A stretch of 64,000 nt of DNA, from contig NZ_JAQOUE010000001.1 in NCBI RefSeq assembly GCF_032191465.1, positions 1,054,001-1,118,000 on the forward strand, read 5' to 3'. The notes below the pieces were generated by a model, which saw nothing but the letters and a program-made list of their open reading frames with translations, was not told where the DNA came from and searched no databases. Positions 10,014-53,830 of the stretch are shown here, one piece after another. Source of the DNA: Candidatus Nitronereus thalassa (GTDB lineage Bacteria > Nitrospirota > Nitrospiria > Nitrospirales > UBA8639). Each line of letters starts with the position of its first letter. The stretch's first letter is position 1. Position numbers and translations under genes: made by a program.

Positions 10014-11015
10014 TTAATAATCTTCGTTATGGAAAACAACTTGGGCCCCTTGGGTTTCCATTCGAAAAGGCACCCATACTCGGATTTGCGGGAGAGCTTC
10101 TTTTATTCGATTGTGTCGTTCCGGAGGGGCAAAAAACATCATAAAACCTCCACCTCCAGCACCCAACAACTTTCCTCCAAACGCCCCTGCTTTGAGTCCG
10201 GTTTTATATAAAGAATCTATTAGATGATTCGAAACCTTGTTAGTCAATGATCGTTTAAGTAGCCAGGATTGGTGTAATAGGCGTCCTAATTTTTCCAAAT
10301 CTGCATTATTTTGAAGTAGACTAAGGGCTTCCTTGGTTATGGAAAATAGCTCCTCAAGGTTCACTTCGCCTGCTTCCATTTTTTGTATCTGCTCCCCCGC
10401 AATTTCTGAAGCAAAACGTGTTAATCCTGTAAATCCCAATAGGATAAATTTCTCCAGGTTTATCAAATATTCTGGTGGTAAGATAAATGGGGAAACTCGA
10501 TATTTTTTCTCTCCGCAGCTAGGCCCCATTTCAATTAACTGCAACCCACCATAAGCTGCCATGATTTGGTCTTGAATGCCGACACTCTCCCCTAGCAGAG
10601 AATGCTCTACCTCAATAGCCTCATCGGCTAATTGAGGTTTTGTCGGCATTTCATGCTTCAACCCATGAAGTGCATGTAAGAGACCAACAGTAAAAGTTGA
10701 ACTCGACCCAATTCCCGACTTCGCAGGCAAGTCGGCATCATGATGAACCTCCAAGCCGGAGGTCATATTTAAATATTCTAGGCAACCTCGCACTGCCGGA
10801 TGCTCAATATCCTTATGTTCATGAACCGTCTCCATTTTGGAATATACGACTCGCGATTTGTAATCGAAAAATGGTTGGAGACGCCGGCATGTGATATAAC
10901 AGTATTGAGAAAAAGTCGTGGCAATAACTAACCCCTCATTACGGGAATACCACGCAGGATAATCCGTCCCCCCTCCAAAAAATGAAAGTCGAAAAGGGGT
11001 CCTTGTGATGATCAT
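10014..11015 (-). CDS. hddA: GHMP-family sugar kinase, HddA-like (D-glycero-D-manno-heptose 7-phosphate kinase type)
   Basis: The 333-residue protein starts with TPFRLSFFGGGTDYP, the characteristic N-terminus of HddA and related sugar kinases. GHMP motif 2 is PAKSGIGSSS (about residues 100-109) and the C-terminal glycine motif is LGAGGGGFMMFF. HddA phosphorylates D-glycero-D-manno-heptose 7-phosphate at C1 on the way to GDP-heptose. An HddC-like guanylyltransferase lies in the same block (19969-20700), which supports the assignment, but GmhA and GmhB are not in the window. A fucokinase-like or other C1-kinase role cannot be excluded. It is the last gene of the sugar-nucleotide block, 21 bases after the dehydratase gene. 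Confidence 0.8.
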   Translation of the reverse strand: MIITRTPFRLSFFGGGTDYPAWYSRNEGLVIATTFSQYCYITCRRLQPFFDYKSRVVYSKMETVHEHKDIEHPAVRGCLEYLNMTSGLEVHHDADLPAKSGIGSSSTFTVGLLHALHGLKHEMPTKPQLADEAIEVEHSLLGESVGIQDQIMAAYGGLQLIEMGPSCGEKKYRVSPFILPPEYLINLEKFILLGFTGLTRFASEIAGEQIQKMEAGEVNLEELFSITKEALSLLQNNADLEKLGRLLHQSWLLKRSLTNKVSNHLIDSLYKTGLKAGAFGGKLLGAGGGGFMMFFAPPERHNRIKEALPQIRVWVPFRMETQGAQVVFHNEDY

Positions 11016-12092: not shown

Positions 12093-13064
12093 TCAATTTG
12101 CCCCAGTTTTCCCCAGAAAAAAGGTATGTTCTTTATACACATCTTGAATGCGTTTTAGCTCAGTCTTTTGAAGTGGGCCCATTTGGCTAGCTCCAACATT
12201 CTCTGTGACTTCCTTTTCAGATAACATGCCAGGGATAACCGTAGAAACTTCAGGATAAGAGAGGCAATATCTCAATGCCTTTTGAGCTTCAGTTTGGCAG
12301 CCACTCTCCGGAGCCAAATTAAATAACTGTGGGGCGTTGGCCCAACATTCTTTTTGTGAAATAGACCAATTTTTTCTGTGGTCTTGCCCATCAAAATCGG
12401 TCTCAGCCGAAAGTTGTCCGGCTAAAAATCCAAAACATAATGGGGTTCGGACAACAATCCCTACTCCCTCATTCCTACACAAATCCATCACCCCACATTC
12501 CACAGCCCGTTGATCAAGCATATTAAAATTTACTTGAACAGACTCAAACTCAAACTGTTTTATTGCCGTCAAAGCATCCTCGGGTGAACGGACAGAAATC
12601 CCCAAAGACCGCACCTTCCCCTCTTTTTTTAATGAGGATAAGCATCCTAGAACCGCTTCGTCTTCCATTATATGAAGGGGGGGGTCGTGAAGTTGGTATA
12701 AATCAATATAATCTGTTTGGAGCCTGCGCATGCTCTTTTCGATTGAAGTTTGAATATGGTCAACGGAAAAATTTTGTCCTCCACTATGATCAAGCATGCC
12801 CACCTTTGAGGCAATCATAATATTATGCCTTTGGCTTTTAAGCTCTTGGCCAATTAAGGCCTCAGAATGTCCATATCCATACAAATCCGCAGTGTCATAA
12901 AATGTTACGCCTAGATCAAAGGCCTTTCGTAAGGCCTTTCGACTTTCATTGTCGATCGTGGGCCCATAGGCAATAGCTCCCTTATGAGATCCACCAATAC
13001 CCCAGGCACCAAAACCAATTTCTGAGACCTGAATGCCGGAGCGTCCGAGTGTTCTATAATTCAT
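12093..13064 (-). CDS. Aldo/keto reductase
   Basis: The 323-residue TIM-barrel oxidoreductase has the AKR tetrad in place: Asp in YDTADLYG, Tyr in LYGYGHSE, Lys in ASKVG and His in YQLHDP. The start MNYRTLGRSGIQVSEIGFG is typical of the family. These enzymes use NAD(P)H to reduce carbonyls. In sugar-nucleotide loci they often reduce a keto-sugar intermediate, so this one may reduce C3, C4 or a side-chain carbonyl of the sugar made by this block. It sits between the radical SAM and dehydratase genes on the same strand. The substrate is not shown by the sequence. Confidence 0.88.
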   Translation of the reverse strand: MNYRTLGRSGIQVSEIGFGAWGIGGSHKGAIAYGPTIDNESRKALRKAFDLGVTFYDTADLYGYGHSEALIGQELKSQRHNIMIASKVGMLDHSGGQNFSVDHIQTSIEKSMRRLQTDYIDLYQLHDPPLHIMEDEAVLGCLSSLKKEGKVRSLGISVRSPEDALTAIKQFEFESVQVNFNMLDQRAVECGVMDLCRNEGVGIVVRTPLCFGFLAGQLSAETDFDGQDHRKNWSISQKECWANAPQLFNLAPESGCQTEAQKALRYCLSYPEVSTVIPGMLSEKEVTENVGASQMGPLQKTELKRIQDVYKEHTFFLGKTGAN

Positions 13065-13124: not shown

Positions 13125-15098
13125 CTAAAAATGGCCAGACAGTTGAACATCAACCACATTGTTTCCATAAAGATAGGCACCCTTTTTATTTCCATACCAA
13201 ATTACTTCCCGACACCAGTCATCCCAAGAATCCCAGACCTGGGTTGTTCTATCAATATGGTACGTTGTGGATTTATTAATAAGAGAACATTCCTCTCCAG
13301 TAATTGCTGCGCGATAGTACTCCCAAATATTATAAGAGCACTCAATTTCGAGATCTTTGGATTGGAAGGGTTGCTTGAGAAGATTGCAATTCAGCTCAAC
13401 TGCATCCTGAAGTAAGTGATTGGGTAGCCTTAAATGATTTCCCTTTAAAACCTCCTCTATTAATTGCTGGGCTTCTTTAAAAAATTTCTCCACCTTTCCC
13501 TCGAAACATAATTCAATAAGAATGTATTCATCTGCTGGCCACCAGATATTCAACCACTTATCCGAGTGACAGTATTCAGGCCCGGCATTTTGGATGTCTA
13601 TAGCTTTTTCAATGAAATAACTTTTTATTCCCTGAAGAATAGGGAAACCTTCTAGATCCCGTTCGAGAAAAATCTCTATTAATTCACGATGGGGGACTTC
13701 GCAAAGGTTGTGGATCAGCACAAGTGGGACTTGAAAGACCTTGTCAAAATATAGAAACGCCGTCATCCACGAAAACACTCGAGTTCTTACCCAATCTTTT
13801 TTTGGCATGGACTCCGTGGCAATGACGAGTTGCTGCATTTCAAAAATATCATCCTCAGACTCGAACACTGATCCATGAATATTGATGGTTTTTGATTCAA
13901 CCCATTGCATCCCATATTTTTCTTGATACTCAGGATCTCCCATCTCGGCATTAGGAAGAATCGAGAGGTTATTAAATTGGATTCGATTATGCTGACCATT
14001 TTCGATAATGGTGGAAACGGCTTTCGTAAACGTCTCATACGTTTCCCCAGGCAGCCCCAATATTAAATCCGTATAAGTTTCCACATTGTCTTTCGTAAAC
14101 CGTTTCTGTAGTTCTTGGTAGGTATTGGTCGAAATATTCCCTCGCTTAATACTTTTGAGTGTATTGGGATCCATCGATTGAAGGGCAATATCAACCCCTT
14201 TGTTTAGGCCTGCATCTGCCAAAATTTTTTGGGTTTCATATGCACGTTCCGTTGCATTCTTGGTCGCTTGTACCGACAACGCGTGAGGATAACCGTATTC
14301 CATCTTTGAATGGGCAACAAATTTAGCAATATCAATGTCCCGCGAAAGGATTCCGAAATTCGCATCGCAGCAGAACACAAACTCAATCTTATGAGTAGCA
14401 AACCACTCCACTTCCTTATAGAGTCTTTCAATGTCGAATTTGTATACTTTACTGGCAACAGCGGATCCCCAATCGCAAAAGGTACAGGCAAAAGGGCACC
14501 CACGATTAGTTTCCCATAACGCAATCCAGTGCTCATTGGGGTTTGCCTGCATCAAAGGTTCAAAAATCCCTTCTAAATAGGGGGAAGGGAACTGCGCTAG
14601 CTCCTTCATTCTCCCTCCCTTGGGATTGGTGACGACCGCACCATTCCGGTCAATAAAACTTATAGAGGGGATGTTGGGCCAATCTTGGCATTCAAATTTT
14701 TCCAAGATTTCTAGCGCAGAATGCTCTCCCTCACCATGGCAAGTAATATCGATAAAGGGGTGCTGTTTTAAAAAAGTATTATCTCTTTCTGGAACTTGCG
14801 GCCCTCCAAAAACAATTAACATCTCAGAATTTTGCTCCTTGAGCCTTTTGGCTATTTCCAAAGAGATCCTCATATTCCAAACATACGTGCTCACAAATAG
14901 CACATCCACTCCCAACAGCTGATCGACAGCCTCTTTAACAGCAATCCTCTTATAAATAGGCAAACGAAATTCAAACCTCTCCGGATTACCTAAATTTGCC
15001 TGAGCATAGGCCTGAAGCATTCCCGCTGAAAGGGGAAAATAGTTTTGTCCCGAGAAACTGTTATTGATCTGCATTAAACCAACTTTTATCTTATTCAC
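13125..15098 (-). CDS. Radical SAM protein with B12-binding-like N-terminal domain
   Basis: The 657-residue protein has an N-terminal Rossmann-like domain (about residues 1-135) in the position of a cobalamin-binding domain, with VFGGPQVPER near residue 96. The radical SAM core follows, with cysteines C201, C205 and C208 in a CxxxCxxC motif for the 4Fe-4S cluster. The usual cobalamin DxHxxG motif is not visible, so B12 binding is uncertain. About 250 C-terminal residues have no recognised domain. Class B enzymes methylate unreactive carbons or rearrange skeletons; a C-methylation or other C-branching step on the sugar is possible here. It belongs to the same minus-strand block as the E1 subunits and the PLP dehydratase. 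Confidence 0.85.
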   Translation of the reverse strand: MNKIKVGLMQINNSFSGQNYFPLSAGMLQAYAQANLGNPERFEFRLPIYKRIAVKEAVDQLLGVDVLFVSTYVWNMRISLEIAKRLKEQNSEMLIVFGGPQVPERDNTFLKQHPFIDITCHGEGEHSALEILEKFECQDWPNIPSISFIDRNGAVVTNPKGGRMKELAQFPSPYLEGIFEPLMQANPNEHWIALWETNRGCPFACTFCDWGSAVASKVYKFDIERLYKEVEWFATHKIEFVFCCDANFGILSRDIDIAKFVAHSKMEYGYPHALSVQATKNATERAYETQKILADAGLNKGVDIALQSMDPNTLKSIKRGNISTNTYQELQKRFTKDNVETYTDLILGLPGETYETFTKAVSTIIENGQHNRIQFNNLSILPNAEMGDPEYQEKYGMQWVESKTINIHGSVFESEDDIFEMQQLVIATESMPKKDWVRTRVFSWMTAFLYFDKVFQVPLVLIHNLCEVPHRELIEIFLERDLEGFPILQGIKSYFIEKAIDIQNAGPEYCHSDKWLNIWWPADEYILIELCFEGKVEKFFKEAQQLIEEVLKGNHLRLPNHLLQDAVELNCNLLKQPFQSKDLEIECSYNIWEYYRAAITGEECSLINKSTTYHIDRTTQVWDSWDDWCREVIWYGNKKGAYLYGNNVVDVQLSGHF

Positions 15099-15129: not shown

Positions 15130-16119
15130 CTAAGTATGGACTTTTTTTACAAGATGCAATTGATTTTCTTTGAACCAATTTATCGTATCCGTAAGCCCTT
15201 CCTCTAACCCCACGGCTGCTTTGAAACCAAGCTTTTCAAGGGCTTTATTGGTATCTACGACCCGAATAGGAATCGTTGTCGGTTTAGTTGGGTCAAACAT
15301 AATTCTGGAACGACAACCAGACAATTGAAGAATTGTTTCCGCAAGTTGTTGGATGGAAACACTAGCACCAGAACCCAAATTTACCCCTTCCCAATGAGGG
15401 TAACGTTCTAAGGCCAACAAACATCCTCTCGCAACATCACTGACATGAAGGAAGTCTCTAATTTCCTTCCCATTACTCCAGATTTCAAAGGGATCTTGCT
15501 GTTCCACTGCCTTCCTAATCAAAGCCGGAATGACATGGCACGTTTCAAAATCAAAATTATCAAAACGACCATAAAATGGGACGGGTCGTACCACGGATAT
15601 CTTCATTCCGTATTTTTCGCAATAAAATTTTGCTAGAGATTCGACATATCTCTTCATATTTCCAACGCCCTGGTAGGCACTATGTGGCTCATCTATGAAT
15701 GCTTCTTCTTCTCGTACCGGTCGAGGATAAGCTGGGTACACTGTAGTGCTACTCACCAGCAAAACACGCTTAATACCAGCTAAGCAGGCCGCTTGAAGGG
15801 ATCGCGCAGCCATAACAAGATTGGAAGTAACCGCAAGCATCGGATTATTGATAGCTTGGGCTGCACCAACTGTTACAGAAGCACATAAACAGGCGATATC
15901 CATTCCTGACATTACTTTGTCACATTCAGCTTGTTCTGTGAGGTCGGCCTTTAAAAATTCGAAATTCGTTATATCTTGATTAAAGAAAGGGCGTTTATGA
16001 ACTACAGCTCGAATTGTCGCTCTCATGGGGAGAAGACCTTCAATTAAATGTCTCCCTAAGAGACCTGTCGCCCCAGTCACAACAACTTTTTTATTTTCAA
16101 AGAAATCAGTCATTGGCAT
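15130..16119 (-). CDS. NAD-dependent epimerase/reductase (extended SDR, GDP-fucose-synthase-like)
   Basis: The 329-residue extended SDR has VVVTGATGLLGRHL near the N-terminus and SSTTVYP as the catalytic Ser/Thr segment. PVPFYGRFDNFDFETCHVIPALIRK recalls the WcaG/GMER group, which epimerises and reduces GDP-4-keto-6-deoxy sugars. The presumed catalytic Tyr and Lys occur as YQGVGNMK, six residues apart instead of three, as in a subfamily I associate with sugar loci. A second start (M3) is possible. It is probably a late reductase or epimerase of the pathway encoded around it. Confidence 0.82.
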   Translation of the reverse strand: MPMTDFFENKKVVVTGATGLLGRHLIEGLLPMRATIRAVVHKRPFFNQDITNFEFLKADLTEQAECDKVMSGMDIACLCASVTVGAAQAINNPMLAVTSNLVMAARSLQAACLAGIKRVLLVSSTTVYPAYPRPVREEEAFIDEPHSAYQGVGNMKRYVESLAKFYCEKYGMKISVVRPVPFYGRFDNFDFETCHVIPALIRKAVEQQDPFEIWSNGKEIRDFLHVSDVARGCLLALERYPHWEGVNLGSGASVSIQQLAETILQLSGCRSRIMFDPTKPTTIPIRVVDTNKALEKLGFKAAVGLEEGLTDTINWFKENQLHLVKKVHT

Positions 16120-16147: not shown

Positions 16148-17188
16148 TTAGAAGGGCCCTTTAAAATTCTTTTCATAGGTGTAAAACTCTTCGCCACTTA
16201 AATCCATTTCCTCAAGTTCCAACATTTTTTCTACTGTCCGAATAATCGTCACGGCAGAGGGATAAAATAGATTTTCAAGTGGTCTCGTCGTTGGGCAGGG
16301 AGCATGGGCAAATCCCAATCGTTCAACTGGTTTCTTTAAGGTGGAAAAACATTGATGGCTAATCATCGCTGCCAATTCTGCTCCAAACCCGCAATAAGAC
16401 CAATCGTAATCTGCCACAATACAATGCCGAGTTTTATTCACAGAATCAACGAGCGGCTGTTCCTCAAGAGGAGAAACCGTCCGAACATCAATAACCTCTA
16501 TATTAATTCCTCTTTTCTCCAAGACTTCACCAGCCTTCAATGCCTCAACTGTCATCCAAGACGTGGTGAGGACGGAAAGATCATGCCCAGATCTTCGCAA
16601 TCCGACAATACCAAGGGAAATAATCTCTTCATCTTTAACTTCTCCTTCAACATCATATAACCATCGATGCTCCATAAAAATCACTGGATTTTCATCACGA
16701 ATGGCTGCTCGCAACAAACTATAAGCATCTTGGGGAGTAGTAGGTAGCACGACCTTGAGTCCTGGCAAATGAGCAAAAACCGAATGTAGGGATTTACTGT
16801 GCTGCGCTGATTGTCCCCACCCTCTACCGATTACAGCTCGAATGACAAGGGGAATTTTTAATCGTCCACCACTCATATAACGTAAATTCGAAATCATATT
16901 GGTAATTTGATTCATGGCCAGAAGCATAAAATCTGCCCTAATATGAATGTGGACAGGTCTCAAGCCAGAAAGCGCCGCCCCCAAAGCCACTCCGGTCATA
17001 GCCTCCTCGGATAATGGAGTCCCAAAGCAACGTTCAGGACCAAACTTTTCCACTAATCCCTTGGTACTCCCAAAAATACGCTTATGATCTTGGACATCCA
17101 ATCCATAGACAAAAACGGATGCATCACACTCCATTTCCCGCATCAGGGCCAAATTGAGGGCCTCTCTAAATGTCAAATTTAATTTCAT
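16148..17188 (-). CDS. Thiamine-diphosphate-dependent E1 enzyme, beta subunit
   Basis: The 346-residue protein matches the beta subunit of two-component 2-oxoacid dehydrogenase E1 enzymes. It has TPLSEEAMTGVALGAAL, holding the conserved Glu (E61 or E62) that activates the thiazolium cofactor, and GQSAQHSKSLHSVFAHLPG with the active-site histidine. A transketolase C-terminal domain follows (from about residue 215). The alpha subunit gene lies directly upstream with a 4-base overlap. No E2 lipoyl acyltransferase or E3 flavoprotein is in the window, so a classic dehydrogenase complex is unlikely. In a sugar locus this pair may transfer an activated two-carbon unit to a keto-sugar. Confidence 0.88.
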   Translation of the reverse strand: MKLNLTFREALNLALMREMECDASVFVYGLDVQDHKRIFGSTKGLVEKFGPERCFGTPLSEEAMTGVALGAALSGLRPVHIHIRADFMLLAMNQITNMISNLRYMSGGRLKIPLVIRAVIGRGWGQSAQHSKSLHSVFAHLPGLKVVLPTTPQDAYSLLRAAIRDENPVIFMEHRWLYDVEGEVKDEEIISLGIVGLRRSGHDLSVLTTSWMTVEALKAGEVLEKRGINIEVIDVRTVSPLEEQPLVDSVNKTRHCIVADYDWSYCGFGAELAAMISHQCFSTLKKPVERLGFAHAPCPTTRPLENLFYPSAVTIIRTVEKMLELEEMDLSGEEFYTYEKNFKGPF

Positions 17189-18144
17189 ATCAAGACATCT
17201 TGATAAAGTTCTGAAGCATCGGGAAAAGGAGCACTTTCAGCCATTTTCACACTTCGATCAATTTGTTTTCTAACCTCGGCTTGAACGGACAAAAGATCTT
17301 TCTCGGAACAACCCATGTTTAAGAGACTTTGTTCATATGCCAGCAGAGGATCAAGTCTATTCATTTCTGATTGATCCGGTTTAGGCCTATATCCTGTATT
17401 GAAGTCTTCCCTCGGTCCCACATGTTCTAAAAATCGAAGATAAGGGAAACGAATGAATCCTGGCCTCGGATGTTCCAGCATTTTCTTAACCATTTGTGAA
17501 GTTGCCGAAATCACCTCAAGTAAATTGTGTCCATCAGCTTCGTCCGAATAGCATTTGAACCCACCAATCGCATCAAGAATCGTCCGAAACCCCTGTCGTT
17601 CTGAGGCCGGCGTATGAATGGCTAAATCATTATCTTCACAGACGAACAGAACACGCAGTTGCTTAAGACAGGCAAAATTAAGACTCTCCCAAAATGTTCC
17701 TTCTTCAACTGCGCCATCCCCAAAAAATACTACGACAAAGTCCTTCGACCCTCGATAAGCATTTGCAAGAGCAACTCCAACCGCTACAGGAATGGTCGAA
17801 GCCACTACAGCGGAAGTGGCCACGAGGCCATTTTCAGGCGCACACAAATGCATGGAACCAGCCTTCCCCTTCCCGGAACCCGTCACCTTTCCATACAATT
17901 CTGCAAAAAACCCATCCGTATCCTCTGTCATGGTCAAGTAAAGCGTGTGATTTCTATAAGTTCCAAAAGCCTTAAATCCAATTGGCAAACTATGACAGAC
18001 TCCTATGGGTATAGCCTCTCCCCCAATTCCCAAGTGCACGGGGGTTTTCATCCCATCTTTAAAATATTCCTCTCCGATTTTTTCCTCGGCCCTTCGGGTC
18101 AGGTACAATTTTCTGTAAAGTTTTAGTGCTTCGTCTTTGTACAT
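17185..18144 (-). CDS. Thiamine-diphosphate-dependent E1 enzyme, alpha subunit
   Basis: The 319-residue protein is an E1 alpha subunit. The thiamine-diphosphate motif starts with GDG at residues 142-144 (FFGDGAVEEG) and ends with EDND about 30 residues later, and GKAGSMHL is also conserved. The usual phosphorylation-loop region reads RFLEHVGPREDFNTGYR and keeps the His. It overlaps its beta partner by 4 bases, as expected for a heterotetramer. Homologous pairs in antibiotic sugar clusters (as I recall, AviB1/AviO2 of avilamycin) attach a two-carbon branch to a sugar. A simple pyruvate or acetoin dehydrogenase role fits the context less well. Confidence 0.88.
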   Translation of the reverse strand: MYKDEALKLYRKLYLTRRAEEKIGEEYFKDGMKTPVHLGIGGEAIPIGVCHSLPIGFKAFGTYRNHTLYLTMTEDTDGFFAELYGKVTGSGKGKAGSMHLCAPENGLVATSAVVASTIPVAVGVALANAYRGSKDFVVVFFGDGAVEEGTFWESLNFACLKQLRVLFVCEDNDLAIHTPASERQGFRTILDAIGGFKCYSDEADGHNLLEVISATSQMVKKMLEHPRPGFIRFPYLRFLEHVGPREDFNTGYRPKPDQSEMNRLDPLLAYEQSLLNMGCSEKDLLSVQAEVRKQIDRSVKMAESAPFPDASELYQDVLI

Positions 18145-18161: not shown

Positions 18162-19289
18162 TTATTCAAAAAATGACTGCACCGTTGAGGCAGCAAAGTC
18201 GACATCCTCATCTGTCAGATATTGATGAACTCCAAAATGAAGGCCAGTGCGGCCAATCCGTTCTGCGACGGGGAAATCTCCTTCCCTATATCCTAGAAAA
18301 GCAAAAGCGGAATGTTGTGTGGGAAGGGAACCGAATAAGGTTTTACACTGAATCCCCTTCTGTTCCAAATAGTTATACAGCCCGTCAATTGATTTTTTTT
18401 CGTCTCGAAGGACGAGGGGAAAAGCATGTGGGCAAATGACTTCGCCTGGACAATCTGGATAAAGGTACATGGCTTCATCCAGAGGTTTAAGTAAATTCCA
18501 AAGCCGAGAAAGGTGACGCCTCCTCACGGAAAACGTCCGATCAAACATTTCAAGCCCTTCGAGTCCAATAGCTGCTTCCAGATCATTCATTTTGGAGTTG
18601 AACCCAATCCGGTCAAAATGAAAATACAGTTCTCCTCCTCTTCTTCCATGCGTACGAACAGAACGACACAGTTCCGCAAAAAGTTCCTCGCTTGCGGAAA
18701 TCATTCCTCCTTCCCCACTACAAATGATATGTGCCGCATAAAAACTAAATAATCCCATGGACCCAAATGACCCAACAACCTGACCATCCAAGGTCGCGCC
18801 GTGGGCTTCACAGCAATCTTCAATAACGAGAAGTTTGTGCCGCCTAGCGATTTCAATAATTTCTTTCATTTTGCATGGCTTGCCCATCGTGTGTACAACC
18901 TGAATGGCTCGCGTTTTGGGAGTAATGGCTGGTTCAATAAGTGAGGGGTCTAGATTTAAAGTTTCCAGCTCGACATCAACAAACTTCGGCACTAACCCTG
19001 CCGCTAAAATACAATTTGCCGTGGCGACAAATGCCAAAGCTGGGGTTATAACCTCATCTCCTCGACTTGCTCCGACACTATTAAGAGCCGCCATTGCGAC
19101 AAGTCCGGCATCAGTTCCCGAACTTGTCGCAATGGCGTGGGGATAGCCAAACCTTTTTGCAAAATCAGTTTCAAATTGTTTGACATTTTGCCCTTCAGAA
19201 ACCCAATTTCTTTGGATGGCTGCGTCTAAATGCTTTCGGGCTATTTCACCGATTTCAATATGGCCAAATGTAATTCGATACGGCTTCAC
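18162..19289 (-). CDS. DegT/DnrJ-fold PLP enzyme with His in place of the Schiff-base Lys (3-dehydratase type)
   Basis: The 375-residue protein has the DegT/DnrJ/EryC1/StrS aminotransferase fold, with TSSGTDAGL for phosphate binding, VIEDCCEAHGA for the PLP ring Asp, and SGEGGM after the active site. Where aminotransferases have the PLP-binding lysine, this protein has H187 (FSFYAAHIICSGEGG). That swap is the hallmark of ColD and of RfbH/DdhC (E1), which remove the C3 hydroxyl of 4-keto-6-deoxy sugars. I therefore favour a C3 dehydratase making a 3-deoxy or 3,6-dideoxy sugar nucleotide. It lies 17 bases before the E1 alpha gene. No ferredoxin-type E3 reductase is nearby, which fits ColD-like better than RfbH-like chemistry. 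Confidence 0.82.
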   Translation of the reverse strand: MKPYRITFGHIEIGEIARKHLDAAIQRNWVSEGQNVKQFETDFAKRFGYPHAIATSSGTDAGLVAMAALNSVGASRGDEVITPALAFVATANCILAAGLVPKFVDVELETLNLDPSLIEPAITPKTRAIQVVHTMGKPCKMKEIIEIARRHKLLVIEDCCEAHGATLDGQVVGSFGSMGLFSFYAAHIICSGEGGMISASEELFAELCRSVRTHGRRGGELYFHFDRIGFNSKMNDLEAAIGLEGLEMFDRTFSVRRRHLSRLWNLLKPLDEAMYLYPDCPGEVICPHAFPLVLRDEKKSIDGLYNYLEQKGIQCKTLFGSLPTQHSAFAFLGYREGDFPVAERIGRTGLHFGVHQYLTDEDVDFAASTVQSFFE

Positions 19290-19387: not shown

Positions 19388-19972
19388 TCATCCTTCACAT
19401 TCAAAATAATAGCGGGCCAATAAAATGGCAAAAAGTATTCCTACTGTCTCAATTTGCTGGTTTTCAATCAAAAGTAAGAGGTCTTCCATTTTCATGAGCT
19501 GAACATCGTGTTCTTCAAGATCCCCACTATTAATATCTTTTACCTTTTCCGTGCCCCTCGCTAAAAACACATGGATTTTCCCTGCCCCCCTATTGGCATC
19601 ACGTACATATTGACCAAGGTCCACCCATTCCCTAGCCTGGCAACCGGTTTCTTCAAGCAATTCCCTTTTTGCACAATCCAGAGAAGACTCTCCTTCATTG
19701 CACATTCCTGCCGGCAAACCCCATATCGCTTTCCCCACTCCATGCCTGTACTGTCTCAAAACAAAAACTTCACCTTTTTCATTTATGGGGACAATAACTG
19801 ATGCATCGGGGCAGGTAATCTTATAATAATCTGGAATAATTCGACCATCAGGAAGTTGGACCCTTTCATTCCAAATTTCAAACCAAGGAAGGACAGATAA
19901 TAGCCGCTTATTGTCCAGAACCGTCCAGGGCTTAAATACAGGTAAACGCAATTGTGAAAATCTTAATGTCAC
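19388..19972 (-). CDS. Nudix hydrolase
   Basis: The 194-residue protein contains a complete Nudix box, GMCNEGESSLDCAKRELLEETG (G-x5-E-x7-REL-x-EE-x-G). An upstream VFVLRQYRHGVGKAIWGLPAG segment resembles ADP-ribose or sugar-nucleotide pyrophosphatases. It could hydrolyse a nucleotide sugar or clear a toxic by-product; the substrate is not predictable. Its start overlaps the stop of the guanylyltransferase gene by 4 bases, so it is coupled to sugar-nucleotide synthesis. A gap of about 100 bases separates it from the PLP enzyme downstream. Confidence 0.9.
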   Translation of the reverse strand: MTLRFSQLRLPVFKPWTVLDNKRLLSVLPWFEIWNERVQLPDGRIIPDYYKITCPDASVIVPINEKGEVFVLRQYRHGVGKAIWGLPAGMCNEGESSLDCAKRELLEETGCQAREWVDLGQYVRDANRGAGKIHVFLARGTEKVKDINSGDLEEHDVQLMKMEDLLLLIENQQIETVGILFAILLARYYFECEG

Positions 19973-20700
19973 AACTTCCCTTTATTTTCAGAAGAACAAT
20001 TTCCAAAAAATTCTTCCGCACTAACAAAACTTTCAGGAGTCCCAATGTCGATAAATTTCCCTCCTGCTTCATATCCACATATTCCCCTTTGAATCCATTT
20101 TGGAAATATATCTTTTTCAAGGGAAATTGGCTTGTGTTCAGGGATAGTCGTTATCAAAGATTTATTCACCAGATAAACCCCAGCATTAATCAACCCAGGC
20201 GTGGACTCATTCGTTTTTTCCTCAAAAGCCAAAACCATCTCATCCTTCGAGATTTGAACTCGACCAAACCTCTTTACATTCGGCACATGTGTCAAAACTA
20301 TCGAAACTTGAGATTTTTTAGCCACATGCCACTTTTCAAACGCACACAAATTGACTTGGCAAAAAGAGTCTCCATTCAGCACTAAAACTCTTTTGGAATT
20401 CACAAGGGAGGATGCAAGTCTTAAGGCACCACCAGTCCCGAGAGGAGAGGATTCTTGCGAATAGTTCAATTCAAGCGATTTGTAATTTTCTCCAAATTTT
20501 TGACGAACTTGCTGGGCCTTATATCCTACACATAACACAACCCGCCTGTAATCAGCATCATGGATTTCGTCGAGTAAATAAGAAAGAAAAGGACGTCCCT
20601 TAACCTCAGCAAGTACTTTTGGCTTACCCACAAGAACCGACTGAAGGCGTGTACCAAGACCACCGGCCAAAATGGCTACCGTAGTGTTGGGCCTAGACAT
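19969..20700 (-). CDS. hddC: Sugar-1-phosphate nucleotidyltransferase, HddC-like
   Basis: The 243-residue protein has the nucleotidyltransferase signature AILAGGLGTRL at the N-terminus, followed by GKPKVLAEV and LNGDSF (metal-binding Asp). The length and layout fit D-glycero-alpha-D-manno-heptose-1-phosphate guanylyltransferase (HddC), which makes GDP-heptose from the HddA product. HddA-like kinase and GMD-like genes in the same block support GDP as the carrier. A glucose-1-phosphate cytidylyl- or thymidylyltransferase is a weaker alternative. It overlaps its upstream neighbour by 8 bases and its downstream neighbour by 4, so it is part of a tight operon. Confidence 0.75.
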   Translation of the reverse strand: MSRPNTTVAILAGGLGTRLQSVLVGKPKVLAEVKGRPFLSYLLDEIHDADYRRVVLCVGYKAQQVRQKFGENYKSLELNYSQESSPLGTGGALRLASSLVNSKRVLVLNGDSFCQVNLCAFEKWHVAKKSQVSIVLTHVPNVKRFGRVQISKDEMVLAFEEKTNESTPGLINAGVYLVNKSLITTIPEHKPISLEKDIFPKWIQRGICGYEAGGKFIDIGTPESFVSAEEFFGNCSSENKGKL

Positions 20701-21625
20701 TGCCTAAGTGCAACCGCCCCATCATTCGAAAACCTTTTAGTAACTCTAGAATACCTTCGTCTAGGGAACGATGGGCCTGAAATCCTGCTTCACGCAATCT
20801 CTGATTTGACACAATATAATTTCGTTTATCAGGATCGCTCCCTATGGATGCATAATGAACATAGAAATTGGGAATATGTGCTTGAATGAGCTTTGCCAAC
20901 TCCTCTTTAGATATATTCGCCGAATCCAAACCTGCATTATAGGGCCGCCCCACCATTTGAGAAGAATTCTTCATACAATGCACCATACACTCAGCAACAT
21001 CCCTAATATGAATAAAGTTACGTTTAAAATCTTTTTCAAAAATAACAAGATAGCCAGAGATAAAAGCCTGATAGACAAAATTGTTGACTAGGAGATCAAG
21101 CCGCATCCTTGCGGACATGCCAAATACGGTCGCCAATCGCAATGTCACGACATTAGGTGCATTGAGCAACTCTTGTTCAGCTTGGACTTTGGTTTTGCCA
21201 TACAGTGATATGGGTTCTAAGGGAGTATCCTCCGTACAAAAAGATTCACCAGATTGGGTTCCATAACCGCTATTCGTGGTCGGGAAAATAATCAACTGGG
21301 TTGGGCTACGCATTTTTAATAAGAGTTGTATGGCCTCCAAATTCACAGATTTTGCTAAACATGGATCCCGATCACAGGCAGGGGCCCCGACTATGGCAGC
21401 CAGGGGGATTATGACATCGGTATCTTTTATATTTGAGCGCATCAATTCCTTATTACGTGCATCACCACAAACAAATTCAAACTTTGGATTGGCGCACAAA
21501 TGAAACAGGCTATGTTGCTGGTACAACAAATTATCGATAACAGTTACCTCATACTCTGCCTTCAACAAATGCTCACATAACACTGAACCCAAATAACCCG
21601 CCCCACCAGTCACAAGCACTTTCAT
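20693..21625 (-). CDS. NAD-dependent sugar epimerase/dehydratase (extended SDR)
   Basis: The 310-residue extended SDR has MKVLVTGGAGYLGSVL as its NAD-binding motif, TTNSGYG as the catalytic Ser/Thr region and YGKTK as the YxxxK pair. It is the first gene of the minus-strand sugar-nucleotide block and overlaps the guanylyltransferase start by 8 bases. The exact reaction (epimerisation, dehydration or 4-keto reduction) cannot be read from the sequence. Upstream lies a 438-base non-coding region with an inverted repeat that may hold the operon promoter and operator. Confidence 0.85.
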   Translation of the reverse strand: MKVLVTGGAGYLGSVLCEHLLKAEYEVTVIDNLLYQQHSLFHLCANPKFEFVCGDARNKELMRSNIKDTDVIIPLAAIVGAPACDRDPCLAKSVNLEAIQLLLKMRSPTQLIIFPTTNSGYGTQSGESFCTEDTPLEPISLYGKTKVQAEQELLNAPNVVTLRLATVFGMSARMRLDLLVNNFVYQAFISGYLVIFEKDFKRNFIHIRDVAECMVHCMKNSSQMVGRPYNAGLDSANISKEELAKLIQAHIPNFYVHYASIGSDPDKRNYIVSNQRLREAGFQAHRSLDEGILELLKGFRMMGRLHLGNV

Positions 21626-22063: not shown

Positions 22064-22696
22064 TCAGACGACCGAAAAAACTTTCTGGTGAGGAATGCCC
22101 ATAGTCCGGAAGAGAGCCCTCGTTCCCTCAACATCTACAATATGGCATATGAGAACGGCATCAAAATGCAAAATTTTTAAAGAATCTATAGTGTGACATG
22201 GACAGGAAAGAAATGTCTTCTCTTGGTTCTCGGAAATAAATCCCAAGAATGTAAAATTAGTTCCTTGCAATGACAGATAGGCTAATTCTGCCAACTCGCC
22301 TACCCCGTAAATCATGATCCGATGAACACTCAACTGCTTGAGTTGCATTAGGACTCTGTCAAAACGTTGTCGTACATCCCGAAAATAGGTTAAGGAACAT
22401 TGAATATATTCACAAGTCAGTCTTGATTTCTCTGCAATGCCCTTGGGCGTAATCAAGTACTTGATTCTACCCCTAGGAACCGTCGTTATTTTTATATATC
22501 CTTTGTGCGCCAACCGTTTGATATAGAGATTGGTTAAGCCAAGGGCCACCCCTAGTTTCGAAGCTAGCGATCGTTGCGTAATAACTGGATTTTTTTCAAT
22601 CTCTTGAAGCACATACAGTTCCCGTTGACACTGCATGTTTTCCAGAAATAGGCTATTTGGGGAAATCATGTTCAAAGATTGAACATGAAAGACCAA
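22064..22696 (-). CDS. Winged-helix transcriptional regulator fused to a Rossmann-like domain
   Basis: The 210-residue protein has an N-terminal winged helix-turn-helix (about residues 30-90: NPVITQRSLASKLGVALG, then a wing with TTVPRGRIKYLITPKG). After a helical linker it carries a C-terminal domain with RIMIYGVGELAELAYLSL and FLGFISEN. That pattern resembles the N-terminal nucleotide-binding domain of CapD/WbpM or PglD-type proteins. It may sense a sugar nucleotide or related metabolite and regulate the surrounding polysaccharide genes. It is divergent from the epimerase gene at 22804, with a 107-base shared upstream region. Winged-helix regulators of this type are often seen at the start of exopolysaccharide loci. 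Confidence 0.78.
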   Translation of the reverse strand: MVFHVQSLNMISPNSLFLENMQCQRELYVLQEIEKNPVITQRSLASKLGVALGLTNLYIKRLAHKGYIKITTVPRGRIKYLITPKGIAEKSRLTCEYIQCSLTYFRDVRQRFDRVLMQLKQLSVHRIMIYGVGELAELAYLSLQGTNFTFLGFISENQEKTFLSCPCHTIDSLKILHFDAVLICHIVDVEGTRALFRTMGIPHQKVFSVV

Positions 22697-46073: not shown

Positions 46074-48215
46074 TCATCCCCTTCTTTCCCCTCCCGGCAT
46101 TAACCGCAGTAAGGCACAGGTTCGCTCACCCAAGTGATATTCCTCCCCTCCCTTATGCAGCGGCCCACGCTTGTTGCATTCCGCCAGGGAAGTATCAAAG
46201 ATGAGCTCCCATCGAACCCCTTTCTTATGAGCTGGCAGGGTAAAAGAAATTGGCTCGTGATAGGCATTGAGCAACAACAGAAATGTGTCATCGTAAATGG
46301 CACACCCTTTGGCATCCACTTCTTCGATGGCATCACCGGATAAACGTAAGCCCAAGGAACGAAATCCCTTTCCCCATTCTTCATCCATCATTTCCTTACC
46401 GTCGGCATGGAACCAGGAAATATCCTTCACTTCTGAACCCTGAATTCGGCGCCCTTGGAAAAACCTCCGGCGTTGAAACACCGGGTGATTCGTCTTGAGT
46501 TGAATCAGGCGTTTGGTGAATTCCAATAAATGCTGGTTATTCTTCGTCAAGGTCCAGTCAAACCAACTGACCTCGTTATCCTGACAATAGGCATTATTAT
46601 TGCCCTGTTGGGTTCGACCCAACTCATCCCCACCGCTAATCATCGGAACACCTTGAGAAAGAAGCAGAGTCGCTAAAAAGTTTCGCTTTTGTTTTTCTCG
46701 AACCTCATTGATTTGTGGATCGTCAGTGGGGCCTTCCACCCCACAATTCCAGCTCAGATTATGATCATGCCCATCGCGATTATCTTCACCATTCGCGGAA
46801 TTATGCTTATGATTGTACGACACCAAATCGTGAAGAGTGAAACCATCATGAGCTGTGACGAAATTAATGCTTGCATACGGTTGCCGCCCACTGGCGCTAT
46901 ACAGATCACTGCTCCCTGAGAGCCGATGCGCCATCTCTCCAAGAACGCCGCCATCTCCCTTCCAATAACTCCTGATGGTATCTCGATATTTACCATTCCA
47001 TTCCGCCCATCCTGGCGGAAAATTTCCCACCTGATATCCGCCTTCGCCTAAATCCCAGGGTTCGGCGATCAACTTCACTTGAGACAACACGGGATCTTGG
47101 TGGATGATATCGAAGAATGCACTCAGCCGATCCACATCATGTAACTCCCTCGCCAAGGCCGAGGCCAAGTCAAAACGAAATCCATCCACATGCATTTCTA
47201 GCACCCAATATCGCAGGCTATCCATGATGAGTTGGAGCGTCCGAGGATGCCGCACATTCAGGGTATTCCCACATCCAGTATAGTCCATGTAATACCGTTC
47301 CTTGTGAGGAACTAACCGATAATACGCAGCATTATCCACGCCACGGAAACAGAGAGTGGGACCTAAATGATTGCCTTCACCCGTGTGGTTATAGACTACG
47401 TCTAAGATCACTTCGATCCCGGCACTATGTAATGTTTTGACCATGGTTTTAAATTCATAGACTTTTCGCCCTTGTTCCGGAAACGACGAATAGCGAATGT
47501 CCGGAGCGAAGAATCCAATGGAGTTATAACCCCAATAGTTGGTCAACCCCTTTTCGGTAAGATATTGATCATTCACAAAGTGATGAATAGGAAGAAGTTC
47601 AACGGCCGTGACTCCAAGCGATTGTAAATAATCAATCATGGGAGGAGACGCCAAACCTGCATAGGTTCCGCGCAGTTGCTCGGGAACATCAGGGTGCCGC
47701 ATCGTAAAACCTTTGACATGGACTTCATAGATCACGGTTTTAGACCAGGGCGTATTTAGCAATTGATCTCCGCCCCACGTGAAGGCTTGATCAATCACCA
47801 CGCATTTTGGCACATTGCCTGCGTTATTCCGCTCATCAAAAGAGAGATCCTCCTTGGGGTCTCCGATTCGATAGCCAAACATCGCATCCGACCATTTCAC
47901 CACACCTGTCAGTGCTTTGGCATAGGGATCAATCAACAGCTTGGATGGATTAAACCGGTGGCCGGCTTGCGGTTCATAGGGACCATGAACACGATACCCA
48001 TATAATTGGCCTGGTCGGACTTCCGGCAAATACACATGCCAGACGAGATCGGTGCACTCTTCCATGCGAATCCGGTGACTCTCTTGATCTTGGTGCTCAT
48101 GATCGAATAAACACAGCTCCACCGCAGTTGCGTTTTCAGAAAACAGCGCAAAGTTAACGCCTTCGCCATCCCACATCGCGCCTTGGGGATAGGGCCGTCC
48201 TGGCCACACTCTCAT
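46074..48215 (-). CDS. glgX: Glycogen debranching enzyme GlgX (TreX type)
   Basis: I use the ATG at 48215, which has AAGGA about 9 bases upstream and gives the family start [19 protein letters not shown]; an ATG at 48284 would add 23 residues. The 713-residue protein has an N-terminal CBM48 domain, then a GH13 barrel with nucleophile D349 ([12 protein letters not shown]) and acid/base E385 ([12 protein letters not shown]), and a C-terminal beta domain. It cleaves alpha-1,6 branches of glycogen or maltodextrins. Its upstream region is shared with the divergent treZ gene, consistent with joint control of glucan and trehalose turnover. Confidence 0.95.
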
Positions 48216-48391
48216 ACGTATCATCCTTTCAATGGAAGGAAACTGTTTCAGAAAAGGGAGCAAACTATACGCTGGAACACCCAAGTCCGCAATAATAATG
48301 GTTTAGGGAAAAACCTGTAGACATAAGCAATCAATTTGTTATCATTTATCGCGTCTTGACGCACTCATCACATTCCCGTAAAGCACGACTT

Positions 48392-50278
48392 ATGTCAACG
48401 TTGAAATCTTCTTCCACCCACCACACACCTTGGGCTCTCGACTTGGGTGCCACCACTCTGGACTCCACTACGGTACAATTTCGCGTCTGGGCTCCGATGG
48501 CTCAACGCGTGAGCGTGAAATTTTTCACCCAATCTTTGAAACCCCATTTGCTCAAAAAAGATAAGGAAGGCTATTGGGAGGCTAAAGTCGCTGGAGTGAA
48601 ACCAGGAACGACGTATAAGTATGTCATCGATGACGAGCTGGAGCGTCCCGATCCCGCCTCACGTTATCAACCCGAGGGAGTGCATGGTCCGTCACAGATC
48701 ATTTCTCCTCAGAACTTTTCTTGGAATGATCAGGGTTGGAAGGGACTTCCTCTGGAAGAATACATCATTTATGAATTACATGTAGGCACCTTTACCCCGA
48801 GCAGCACGTTTGATGGAGTGTGCACTAAACTCTCCTACCTTCGTGACCAAGTCGGAGTGACGGCGATTGAATTGTTGCCGGTAGCGCAATGTCCGGGTCT
48901 ACGCAACTGGGGGTATGACGGAACCTATCTCTTTGCACCGCAATCCAATTTTGGCGGCCCCGAAGGATTAAAACGCTTAGTCGATGCCTGCCACGCTCAG
49001 GGCCTCGCCGTTATCATGGATGTGGTCTACAACCACCTCGGGCCTGAAGGAAATTATCTAGGCTCGTTTGGCCCTTACTTTACCGACACCTACAAAACAC
49101 CATGGGGGAGCGCCATTAACTATGACGGTCCATACAGTGATGCCGTCAGACAATTTATCATCAGCAACGCTCTCTTTTGGGTGACGGAATACCACATCGA
49201 CGCCCTTCGACTTGATGCCATTCATGGAATTTTCGATTTTAGCGCCAAACATATACTTCAGGAGTTAGGGGAAGCCGTTCATGCGGAAGCACAACACTTA
49301 GGACGTGCTATACACGTGATCGCTGAAAGCGATCTCAATGATTCAAAGATCATTGCTCCTCTCAACAAAGGTGGCTATGGACTCGATGGCCAATGGAGTG
49401 ATGATTTCCATCATGCTCTACATTGCCTCCTCACAAAAGAGAAGAAGGGCTACTACGAAGATTTCGGGAAACTCAGCCAACTCGTCAAAGCCATCAAAGA
49501 GCGCTTTGTGTACTCCGGCCAATATTCCGTACATCGCAAACGGCGTCACGGAAATTCCGCAAAAATTGTCGCCCCCACACAATTTGTCGTGTTTTCCCAA
49601 AATCACGACCAGGTCGGCAATCGGGCTCAAGGTGAACGGTTATCGACTCTCATTCCTTTCGAGGCGCTGAAAGTCACAGCAGCAGCAGTCCTGCTTTCTC
49701 CAAATATTCCACTCTTATTCATGGGTGAAGAATATGGCGAGACCTCACCATTTCTATATTTCATCGATCACGGTGACGAAGGCCTGATAGAAGCGGTCCG
49801 GCAAGGACGGAAATCAGAATTTGCCGCCTTTGGGTGGACGGAAGTTCCTGATCCCTATGCGCAATCAACCTTCGACAAATCTCGGCTTCAGTGGGACAAG
49901 CCACAATCAGAGGAACAACAATTTCTACAACAGTGGTATCACGCCTTGATAGAACTGAGAAAATCTATTCCCGCCCTTGGACCAGGACAAAAAAAAGATT
50001 CGATAAAAGTTTGGGCCAATCAAAAAGCCAAAGTCCTTACCATTCATCGAACAGGTCAATCTGGGCCTGAGGCACTCATCTTGCTTAGCTTAAACCAAAA
50101 CGTCATAAAAACTGGCATCGCCAAGCCTGAAGGCAAATGGACCCTCATTCTATGTTCAAATTCTCAAAAGTTCGGAGGGCAACAGAACAGCAAGCTTTTA
50201 AATACCCTTCAAGTACCGTCGGAGTCATTGGCGTTAGAACTTCCACCTTACGCCGTATGGGTTTATACTAATTCGTGA
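48392..50278 (+). CDS. treZ: Malto-oligosyltrehalose trehalohydrolase
   Basis: I take the ATG at 48392; an upstream TTG at 48356 is possible. No clear SD precedes the ATG. The 628-residue protein has an N-terminal CBM48-like domain (VQFRVWAPMAQRVSVKF) and a GH13 barrel with nucleophile D275 (ALRLDAIHGIFD) and acid/base E312 (VIAESDLND), plus the typical QNHDQVGNRAQGERL. It releases trehalose from maltooligosyl-trehalose. Its usual partner TreY is not in the window. It lies 196 bases before treS-mak on the same strand. Confidence 0.94.
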   Translation: MSTLKSSSTHHTPWALDLGATTLDSTTVQFRVWAPMAQRVSVKFFTQSLKPHLLKKDKEGYWEAKVAGVKPGTTYKYVIDDELERPDPASRYQPEGVHGPSQIISPQNFSWNDQGWKGLPLEEYIIYELHVGTFTPSSTFDGVCTKLSYLRDQVGVTAIELLPVAQCPGLRNWGYDGTYLFAPQSNFGGPEGLKRLVDACHAQGLAVIMDVVYNHLGPEGNYLGSFGPYFTDTYKTPWGSAINYDGPYSDAVRQFIISNALFWVTEYHIDALRLDAIHGIFDFSAKHILQELGEAVHAEAQHLGRAIHVIAESDLNDSKIIAPLNKGGYGLDGQWSDDFHHALHCLLTKEKKGYYEDFGKLSQLVKAIKERFVYSGQYSVHRKRRHGNSAKIVAPTQFVVFSQNHDQVGNRAQGERLSTLIPFEALKVTAAAVLLSPNIPLLFMGEEYGETSPFLYFIDHGDEGLIEAVRQGRKSEFAAFGWTEVPDPYAQSTFDKSRLQWDKPQSEEQQFLQQWYHALIELRKSIPALGPGQKKDSIKVWANQKAKVLTIHRTGQSGPEALILLSLNQNVIKTGIAKPEGKWTLILCSNSQKFGGQQNSKLLNTLQVPSESLALELPPYAVWVYTNS

Positions 50279-50457
50279 TGAAAACATGTTCCACCTTGAA
50301 CTCTGGAGAGCATGGCGTCCCTCTGGTATTTTGGATAACCGCCCTATTTACAAGTGATCAACAATTATCTGGCATCACCCTTACTTGCAACCCTTAATTT
50401 ATTTTTCGTGGTCAACGTGACTGTCTTCCTCTGGGAGTGGTCAAAGAATCATTGACC

Positions 50458-50464
50458 AAGGAGG
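50458..50464 (+). promoter_or_regulatory. Strong ribosome binding site of treS-mak
   Basis: AAGGAGG at 50458-50464 is a perfect Shine-Dalgarno sequence, 10 bases before the ATG at 50475. It fixes that start and is stronger than the signals of neighbouring genes. Confidence 0.7.
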
Positions 50465-50474
50465 CCTTTTACCC

Positions 50475-53400: not shown

Positions 53401-53813
53401 ATTTTTTGATTATCGATTTTGAGGGAGAACCAGCACGGCCACTGAATGTGCGCCGACTCAAAGAATCCCCCCTCAGGGATGTGGCAGGCATGTTGCGGTC
53501 ATTTCATTACGTCGCCTATGCCTCATTGATAGGAAAAGTCTCCGGTATTCGTCCTGAAGACTTTGCCGTATTGGAGGCTTGGGCTAAACTCTGGCAAACA
53601 TGGGTCAGCGCCACATATCTAAAGGCATACTTGACAACCACGGCGGAAACAGACTTTCTGCCAAAAACCCAGCAAGAACTTCAGCGGCTCCTCGATGCGT
53701 ATACTCTCCAAAAGGCCGTGTATGAACTTGGCTACGAACTGAATAATCGCCCCGATTGGTCCAGGATTCCGCTCGAAGGCATCATGCAGATTATTGACTC
53801 ATCGAACACCTAA
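50475..53813 (+). CDS. treS: Trehalose synthase/maltokinase fusion
   Basis: The 1112-residue fusion has an N-terminal GH13 trehalose synthase (about residues 1-550) with nucleophile D208 (LRLDAVPYL), acid/base E250 (LLAEANQWP) and transition-state D316 (NHDELTLEM). The C-terminal maltokinase domain starts near ARRWFGGKARM (about 595) and has H962 and D964 in HGDYHLGQ and D981 in DFEGEP. TreS converts trehalose to maltose, and the kinase makes maltose-1-phosphate for GlgE, encoded 17 bases downstream. The fusion channels the intermediate in the cytoplasmic GlgE pathway. A perfect SD precedes the start. Confidence 0.96.
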   Translation: MSPDSLDNDPLWYKDAIIYELHVRAFADSNADGIGDFRGLTKRLDYLQDLGVTAVWLLPFCLSPLKDDGYDISDYTNINPSYGTRRDVQAFVREAHRRGLRVITELVVNHTSDQHPWFQRARKAPANSKWRNFYVWSESPEKYKGTRIIFKDTELSNWSWDPVAKAYYWHRFFSHQPDLNFENLDVQKALLQVMEFWLDMGVDGLRLDAVPYLYEEEGTSCENLPQTHAFLKKLRKQIDKKYKNRMLLAEANQWPEDAAAYFGDGDECHMNFHFPLMPRLFMAIQMEDRFPIIDILDQTPTIPESCQWGLFLRNHDELTLEMVTDEERDYMYRMFAHDRQARINLGIRRRLAPLLGNDRKKIELMYSLLFTMPGTPVIYYGEEFGMGDNFYLGDRNGVRTPMQWSADRNAGFSQANPQKLYLPIIMDPEYHYEALNVEIQQNNSQSLLWWMKRTLSLRKQYKSFGRGTIQFLHPANRKVLVFLRQYEDETILVAANMSRYAQCVELDLAQFKGMIPTTLFGHNKFPPIGDLPYFLTLSGHTFYWFLLEAPTTEGTTTGLSTDTLPALTIIHEWDALTRGREKSRLERILPSYLKARRWFGGKARMIQSTTISEVVPIPSDNPVAVLCFVKVEYTEGEAESYILPLAFASSSQPTHFEDTPAAIAHVTIQNKGHQQEGLLYDGVWSQEFLKLLVSNLSKNRRVSGPKGDLVTTSIKTFRRRLQQEGPTLEPTLHRGEQSNTSIIFGNQFILKIFRRAETGMNPDGEIGRFLTEKQFPHTAHVAGLLEYQPDMGDPTTVGILQCFVPNEGDAWRFTLDEIGRYFENALTQPPLDPSSPALSRKPLLQLLHDPIPDIAEEMIGGYLEEARLLGQRTGELHVTLASDMEDPNFIAEAFTDFYRRGLYQSMIGSISQNFPLLKQQLKTLPESIQPLAKQVATLESTIRKQFLPIRDLKITAKRIRIHGDYHLGQVLYTGKDFLIIDFEGEPARPLNVRRLKESPLRDVAGMLRSFHYVAYASLIGKVSGIRPEDFAVLEAWAKLWQTWVSATYLKAYLTTTAETDFLPKTQQELQRLLDAYTLQKAVYELGYELNNRPDWSRIPLEGIMQIIDSSNT

Positions 53814-53830
53814 GAAGGAATATTCCAGCC

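Follow-up and report, generated by a model that had tools for sequence, protein, structure and literature searches.

A 375-amino-acid (375-aa) protein encoded in the genome of Candidatus Nitronereus thalassa is most probably a pyridoxamine 5'-phosphate (PMP)-dependent 3-dehydratase of nucleoside diphosphate (NDP)-4-keto-6-deoxy sugars, predicted to act in the manner of ColD. Its gene was found in a stretch of 64,000 nucleotides (the window; contig NZ_JAQOUE010000001.1, positions 1,054,001 to 1,118,000), and its product belongs to the DegT/DnrJ/EryC1/StrS superfamily (PF01041, 320.6 bits versus a cut-off of 19.8). The lysine that forms the Schiff base with pyridoxal 5'-phosphate (PLP) is replaced by histidine (His-type, as opposed to Lys-type, proteins), and the gene stands in a sugar operon beside genes for a thiamine diphosphate (ThDP)-dependent enzyme.

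18162..19289, minus strand: gene of the His-type DegT-fold PLP/PMP enzyme (375 aa, GTG start), predicted NDP-4-keto-6-deoxy-sugar 3-dehydratase
18729..18731, minus strand: codon of H187, which replaces the Schiff-base lysine (translation and alignments)

Histidine in place of the Schiff-base lysine

The first-pass annotation of this DNA had placed a histidine at the PLP-lysine position, and translation and alignment confirm it with exact coordinates (H187, 18731..18729). The motif FSFYAAHIICSGEGG of the 375-aa protein pairs without gaps with FSFFGNKIITTGEGG of GDP-perosamine synthase, H187 standing over the PLP lysine, and also with FSSFYSHHIATMEGG of ColD (2gms), where H187 falls in the column of His188. 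The ColD mutants 3b8x (N) and 2r0t (K) have PDB sequences that are changed precisely at this column, and the histidine of RfbH proteins occupies it as well, which bears out the earlier claim that ColD and E1/RfbH share the replacement. An AlphaFold2 model of the protein (pLDDT 90.8) has the type I PLP fold and matched 3dr4, 3bcx and 2gms from end to end. The best PDB matches of the model were GDP-perosamine synthase (Z 46) and E1 dehydrase (Z 45); the DegT fold shared by the model by itself leaves the function undecided.

Scanning a single genome of each species yielded 29 loci (designated by L numbers), 25 of which belong to the same orthologous family (59-77% identity). They are found in Omnitrophota, Acidobacteriota, 'Deltaproteobacteria', Verrucomicrobiota, Nitrospirota, Methanoperedens and Methanophagales archaea, and one unclassified bacterium. 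Histidine occupies the H187 column in 25/25 orthologues, while the rest of the PLP-type site is conserved (E157-D158, S57-G58-T59, S182 and N231 are invariant or nearly so); neither chance nor a sequencing error accounts for it. A lysine elsewhere at the Schiff-base position, proposed earlier as a means of refutation, was sought among the conserved lysines. Only K137, K233 and K316 are kept in at least 80% of the orthologues, and all three were rejected as substitutes, since they lie off the Schiff-base column. The Schiff-base lysine expected of a sugar aminotransferase is thus missing from the 375-aa protein and all its orthologues. Within the phylum of the window a close relative of the DegT gene was present in 1 of 296 genomes, the window's own, and it was therefore probably acquired horizontally.

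The kinship to ColD and RfbH suggested in the first-pass annotation holds for the shared histidine, but not for orthology. In a tree of 55 proteins (39 His-type and 16 Lys-type), one branch (99/98) parts all the His-type from all the Lys-type rows, and the window family forms a clade of its own (100/100) beside, and outside of, the clade of E1/RfbH, ColD and a His lineage designated 'H4'. When the motif columns were removed (second tree, 66 rows), the split stayed in the best tree with weak branch support, and for this reason we do not claim that the His change arose only once. The best NCBIfam match of the protein is the RfbH model NF011936, at 244 bits versus a cut-off of 423, and alignment showed that it lacks the Cys-rich RfbH insert (GRDCxC...CGKRF), which is present in the RfbH proteins of L035-L037; RfbH membership was ruled out on these two grounds. 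Because the insert is absent, the chemistry would be ColD-like rather than iron-sulphur dependent. An E1/SpnQ-type 3-dehydratase, whose intermediate is reduced via an iron-sulphur centre and a reductase, could be argued from the RfbH model being the best match and from the E1 dehydrase structures being level for the best fold match. However, no ferredoxin-type reductase is found among the operon genes, and with the Cys cluster missing and the score far under the cut-off we consider this very unlikely. The 375-aa protein is not orthologous to ColD or to E1/RfbH, and it very probably represents a separate lineage of 3-dehydratases.

Another pair of His-type DegT proteins, from L031 and L039 (FSTYVAHFLVTGVGG / YSTYIAHLIVTGVGG), is located on a deep branch of its own; no thiamine gene was found near that of L031.

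Operon slot and neighbouring thiamine enzymes

The DegT gene is one of eleven minus-strand genes (21625 to 10014) that overlap or are separated by less than 100 bases. Their order is: short-chain dehydrogenase/reductase (SDR), nucleotidyltransferase, Nudix-like, DegT-His, E1-alpha, E1-beta, SDR, B12 radical SAM, aldo/keto reductase, GDP-mannose 4,6-dehydratase (GMD)-like and GHMP kinase genes. Between the DegT gene and the E1-alpha gene that follows it lie 17 bases.

At other loci the DegT slot of such operons is filled by different His-type proteins. ColD homologues, 48-54% identical to E. coli ColD, occupy it in L032, L034, L101 and L102; in L034 (Sulfurimonas) the homologue (54%) is accompanied by a GMD that shares 64% identity with that of the window, an SDR, a kinase, a nucleotidyltransferase and an E1 pair. 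In Azospirillum lipoferum 4B a ColD homologue (49%) comes directly after an E1 pair in the gene order. L050 and L051 share E1-beta (77%) and SDR (74-75%) proteins with the window, and their DegT is of the 'H4' lineage, ~27% identical and also carrying His. Plasmid pDMC1 of Solidesulfovibrio magneticus RS-1 encodes a His-type DegT 40% identical to the window's, in a module with radical SAM, NUDIX, kinase, E1 pair, GDP-fucose-synthase-like SDR, SDR and nucleotidyltransferase genes and a SIS gene further on. The constant part across these replacements is the histidine, not the sequence. The predicted 3-deoxygenation is most strongly supported here, because at the four loci named above the slot is filled by bona fide ColD homologues in operons of the same type.

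The same slot bears on the possibility that the 375-aa protein is still an aminotransferase, acting via another lysine or from PMP without a Schiff-base lysine. GDP-perosamine synthase is among the nearest solved structures, and SpnQ, a natural His-type enzyme, transaminates without its reductase (PMC8987622). However, ColD and E1 dehydrase were inactive in transamination under the SpnQ conditions (PMC8987622), no conserved lysine is present at the active site, and the slot is common to ColD homologues and not to Lys-type DegTs; we consider an aminotransferase quite improbable. The earlier warning that an aminotransferase label would mislead proved apt: all three plasmid His-type DegTs examined are annotated as 'DegT/DnrJ/EryC1/StrS family aminotransferase'.

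The association with thiamine enzymes was analysed from both sides. Three of the 25 orthologue loci (L010, L013, L029) are cut by contig ends, which leaves 22 usable, and 19 of these 22 carry a same-strand thiamine carboligase within ~8.5 kb. Four architectures were distinguished: E1-alpha/beta in most of the 19, split transketolase in L006, L014, L024 and L028 (L018 holds both E1 and transketolase-like genes), a short thiamine pair with ~200 aa per protein in L012, L027 and L030, and an acetohydroxyacid synthase (AHAS)/YerE-like single chain in L021 and L026. According to a 2025 review, the known or proposed ThDP enzymes that branch keto sugars are YerE-like decarboxylases, alphaKADH2 pairs and split-gene transketolases (PMC12247030), and all three classes were found in the carboligase slot of the orthologue loci. 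The short pairs (L012:3026-4232, L027:2726-3858, L030) combine an E1_dh N-part with Transket_pyr and are devoid of Transketolase_C; these ~200 + 200 aa enzymes are possibly minimal carboligases.

The reverse analysis was anchored on E1-beta in 22 loci chosen regardless of DegT (the window's phylum, the L007 phylum and plasmid matches). It revealed 11 His-type DegTs, all inside the module at 0-3.7 kb from a thiamine gene and representing four lineages (the window family, 'H4', 'H5' and ColD homologues), with the 'H5' gene sitting between E1-alpha and E1-beta in L085-L088. Four Lys-type DegTs were 2.7-6.9 kb away, and 10 loci, some of them short contigs, had no DegT. In 20 control DegT regions, taken from the window's own and related genomes, no thiamine gene was found within 8 kb of the 22 Lys-type DegT genes; one control region proved to be His-type, with a thiamine gene 104 bases away.

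Two further observations concern these loci. A divergent Lys-type DegT (SSTMFSKTLATGGCGG) at L094:18535-19500 lies near split transketolase genes and is the sole Lys-type less than 3 kb from a thiamine gene. The Omnitrophota loci L090-L098 carry E1-alpha/beta at 58-63% identity with no neighbouring His-type DegT, and some add split transketolase or YerE-like genes; these modules probably branch sugars without 3-deoxygenation and perhaps add more than one branch.

Together with the placement on the His-type side of the tree and the loss of the PLP lysine, the carboligase context favours C3 deoxygenation over amination, as predicted in the first-pass annotation. We add to it the suggestion that deoxygenation probably prepares the sugar, to which the adjacent thiamine enzyme would then add a C-branch. 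The entire branching pathway, i.e. 3-deoxygenation followed by C-branching by the thiamine enzyme, is in our view reasonably probable.

Operon genes, probable substrate and proposed pathway

The other genes of the operon and their closest models are as follows.

20693..21625, minus strand: SDR, first operon gene; conserved in nearly all such modules (46-75% identity)
19969..20700, minus strand: sugar-1-phosphate nucleotidyltransferase; nearest guanylyltransferases (Man1P, HddC), below cut-off
19388..19972, minus strand: Nudix-like protein, assigned by eye, no NCBIfam match; possibly a GDP-sugar hydrolase
17185..18144, minus strand: E1-alpha-like subunit of a ThDP enzyme, predicted sugar carboligase; PF00676, 141 bits
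16148..17188, minus strand: E1-beta-like subunit of the same enzyme; PF02779 and PF02780, 4-base overlap with the alpha gene
15130..16119, minus strand: SDR of epimerase/reductase type; nearest curated model GDP-fucose synthase, below cut-off
13125..15098, minus strand: B12-binding radical SAM protein; nearest KedN5-type C-methyltransferases, below cut-off
12093..13064, minus strand: aldo/keto reductase, candidate branch-ketone reductase by analogy with Pau7; PF00248, 210 bits
11037..12056, minus strand: GMD-like SDR, candidate 4,6-dehydratase; PF16363, 225 bits, nearest model gmd, below cut-off
10014..11015, minus strand: GHMP kinase; nearest HddA (D,D-heptose 7-phosphate kinase), below cut-off

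The operon is followed by glycosyltransferase genes, an ABC transporter gene and methyltransferase genes. Its E1-alpha/E1-beta pair has the alphaKADH2 layout, standing in a sugar operon without E2/E3. Aligned to E1-beta of pyruvate dehydrogenase (PDH), the E1-beta-like protein retains the Glu of 'TPLsE', and no E1-beta over the PDH cut-off was found in the window's genome. A housekeeping PDH was rejected for the pair: E2/E3 are not nearby, and other phyla, too, have this pair among sugar genes. Relatives of the radical SAM protein (58-61%) occur in L006, L009, L012 and L028, and those of the GMD-like SDR (64-70%) in other modules; a second B12 radical SAM family (~500 aa) is present in most other modules and not in the window. 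Upstream of the operon, a winged-helix regulator-like gene (22064-22696) has relatives of 36-52% upstream of the module in L006, L010, L023, L025 and L084 and may control it. At a distance, alpha-glucan genes (46074-55819) with a TreS-maltokinase fusion (50475-53813) and GlgE (53831-55819) look like an ordinary GlgE pathway.

GDP is most likely the nucleotide of the activated sugar, which would, on balance, be a heptose made by the route of GmhA, GHMP kinase, GmhB and guanylyltransferase. In the archaeal loci, genes for a GmhA-like isomerase and a GmhB phosphatase are close to the DegT gene; in L024 GmhB scores over its cut-off, with GmhA, HddA and HddC among the best models below theirs, and one GmhA-type SIS gene is located elsewhere in the window's genome. 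As all except GmhB are under the curated cut-offs, both the GDP and the heptose are assignments that we infer. Given the nearest kinase and nucleotidyltransferase models and the archaeal Gmh genes, a GDP-heptose derivative is more probable than the GDP-4-keto-6-deoxymannose named in the first-pass annotation, and the predicted substrate is likely GDP-4-keto-6-deoxy-heptose. Nothing specific to a branched 3,6-dideoxyheptose pathway was found in the literature searched.

From the residue, the orthology, the operon, the co-occurrence and the slot replacement, which are directly established, we infer all the catalytic steps, the substrate and the step order, with ColD chemistry as the model (PMC8987622). 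GDP-D,D-heptose would be converted to its 4-keto-6-deoxy form by the GMD-like enzyme, and the C4 ketone would form a ketimine with PMP. H187 would then serve as the acid/base instead of lysine, with expulsion of the C3 hydroxyl, and hydrolysis and glutamate would restore PMP, giving an NDP-4-keto-3,6-dideoxy sugar. This 4-keto product may be the acceptor for the E1-alpha/E1-beta enzyme; the unit joined at C4 would be a two-carbon acyl group, with pyruvate as its probable source. CDP-4-keto-3,6-dideoxyglucose, on which YerE-like enzymes act, is likewise the product of a 3-dehydratase. The branch ketone might be reduced by the aldo/keto reductase, for which Pau7 is a precedent (PMC4753412), or by an SDR. 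The radical SAM enzyme may, perhaps, C-methylate the branched sugar.

The reverse order, in which PMP joins the side-chain ketone after branching and the C4 hydroxyl leaves to give a 4-deoxy branched sugar, is very improbable. The same chemistry (loss of a hydroxyl beside a ketone) would apply and gene order cannot reveal step order, but we know of no characterised DegT enzyme that removes a C4 hydroxyl after branching. Moreover, the established precedent is the yersiniose logic, with 3-deoxygenation before YerE (PMC12247030), and ColD, whose homologues occur in the slot, uses unbranched GDP-4-keto-6-deoxymannose (PMC8987622). Least probable of all is a catalytically idle relative (a regulator or PLP-binding scaffold): loss of the PLP lysine is the classic mark of a dead PLP enzyme, but the other active-site residues are retained, and in distant phyla and archaea alike the lysine has invariably given way to His, with no mixture.

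Several points weigh against a ColD-like 3-dehydratase acting before branching. Identity to characterised 3-dehydratases is only ~27-31%, and the top-scoring solved structures are GDP-perosamine synthases, level with E1 dehydrase. The GDP and heptose assignment rests mostly on nearest models under their cut-offs. Three Verrucomicrobiota loci (L017, L019, L020) have no clear carboligase nearby; in L017 there is only a distant E1 pair, 6-7 kb off, with a 68% E1-beta on another contig of its genome. Some E1 modules (e.g. L090-L093, L098) are without any DegT, and therefore branching is not always in need of deoxygenation. Finally, the Fisher test of E1-anchored His-type versus all Lys-type DegTs (p = 4e-6) is uncorrected for relatedness and indicative only.

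If the proposed function is true, the DegT gene constitutes a further distinct lineage of PMP-dependent 3-dehydratases, and a systematic annotation error is put right, as His-type DegTs of such operons carry aminotransferase labels in public records. Branching of the alphaKADH2/transketolase type, placed by the 2025 review in secondary metabolites (PMC12247030), would extend to apparent surface polysaccharide islands. The module would also help to trace C-branched sugars among uncultured bacteria and methane-oxidising archaea, for which no description of a C-branched glycan was found in the literature searched, and tertiary-alcohol sugars could be made with its compact set of deoxygenase and carboligase. 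More tentatively, and with slightly less than even confidence, we hypothesize that a widely exchanged bacterial and archaeal module makes GDP-3,6-dideoxy-4-C-branched heptoses, which would be surface sugars of an undescribed class. Within this module several His-type 3-dehydratase lineages and several carboligase classes (E1-alpha/beta, short split form, split transketolase, YerE-like) would be interchangeable, so that a carboligase swap varies the branch chemistry.

Relation to known systems

ColD, the GDP-4-keto-6-deoxy-D-mannose 3-dehydratase of the colitose pathway, resembles the window protein in its DegT fold, His for Lys, lack of a Cys-cluster insert, GDP-type pathway neighbours and homologues in the same operon slot elsewhere. 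However, the two belong to separate clades and are ~27-28% identical in structural alignment. The ColD insert after 'HGW' is absent from the window protein, the motif reads AHIICSGEGG instead of SHHI(A/S)TMEGG, and the window family has its own conserved C-terminal LPTQH...HQYL, unlike ColD. E1/RfbH (CDP-4-keto-6-deoxyglucose 3-dehydrase) and SpnQ are likewise His-type DegT dehydratases, and the E1/RfbH proteins stand on the same side of the tree, but E1 dehydrase and SpnQ bind a [2Fe-2S] centre via four Cys and use a reductase, whereas the window protein is without the RfbH Cys insert and under the RfbH cut-off. GDP-perosamine synthase is the best structural match, similar in length and loops and with GEGGMI after the active residue; it is, in contrast, a lysine aminotransferase, with N-K where the window protein has A-H.

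The yersiniose pathway of YerE matches the proposed pathway in using a 3-dehydratase and then ThDP-dependent two-carbon branching at C4. It involves a CDP-hexose and a single-chain flavo-ThDP enzyme, whereas the window has an E1-alpha/beta pair and probably a GDP-heptose. Such a pair in a sugar pathway is shared with the alphaKADH2 carboligases (AviB1/AviB2, Pau11/Pau12, KbDH), and the aldo/keto reductase of the paulomycin cluster (Pau7) has a counterpart in the window operon. The alphaKADH2 carboligases are known from actinobacterial antibiotic clusters, while the pair of the window type is found in Gram-negative glycan islands, with relatives in archaea.
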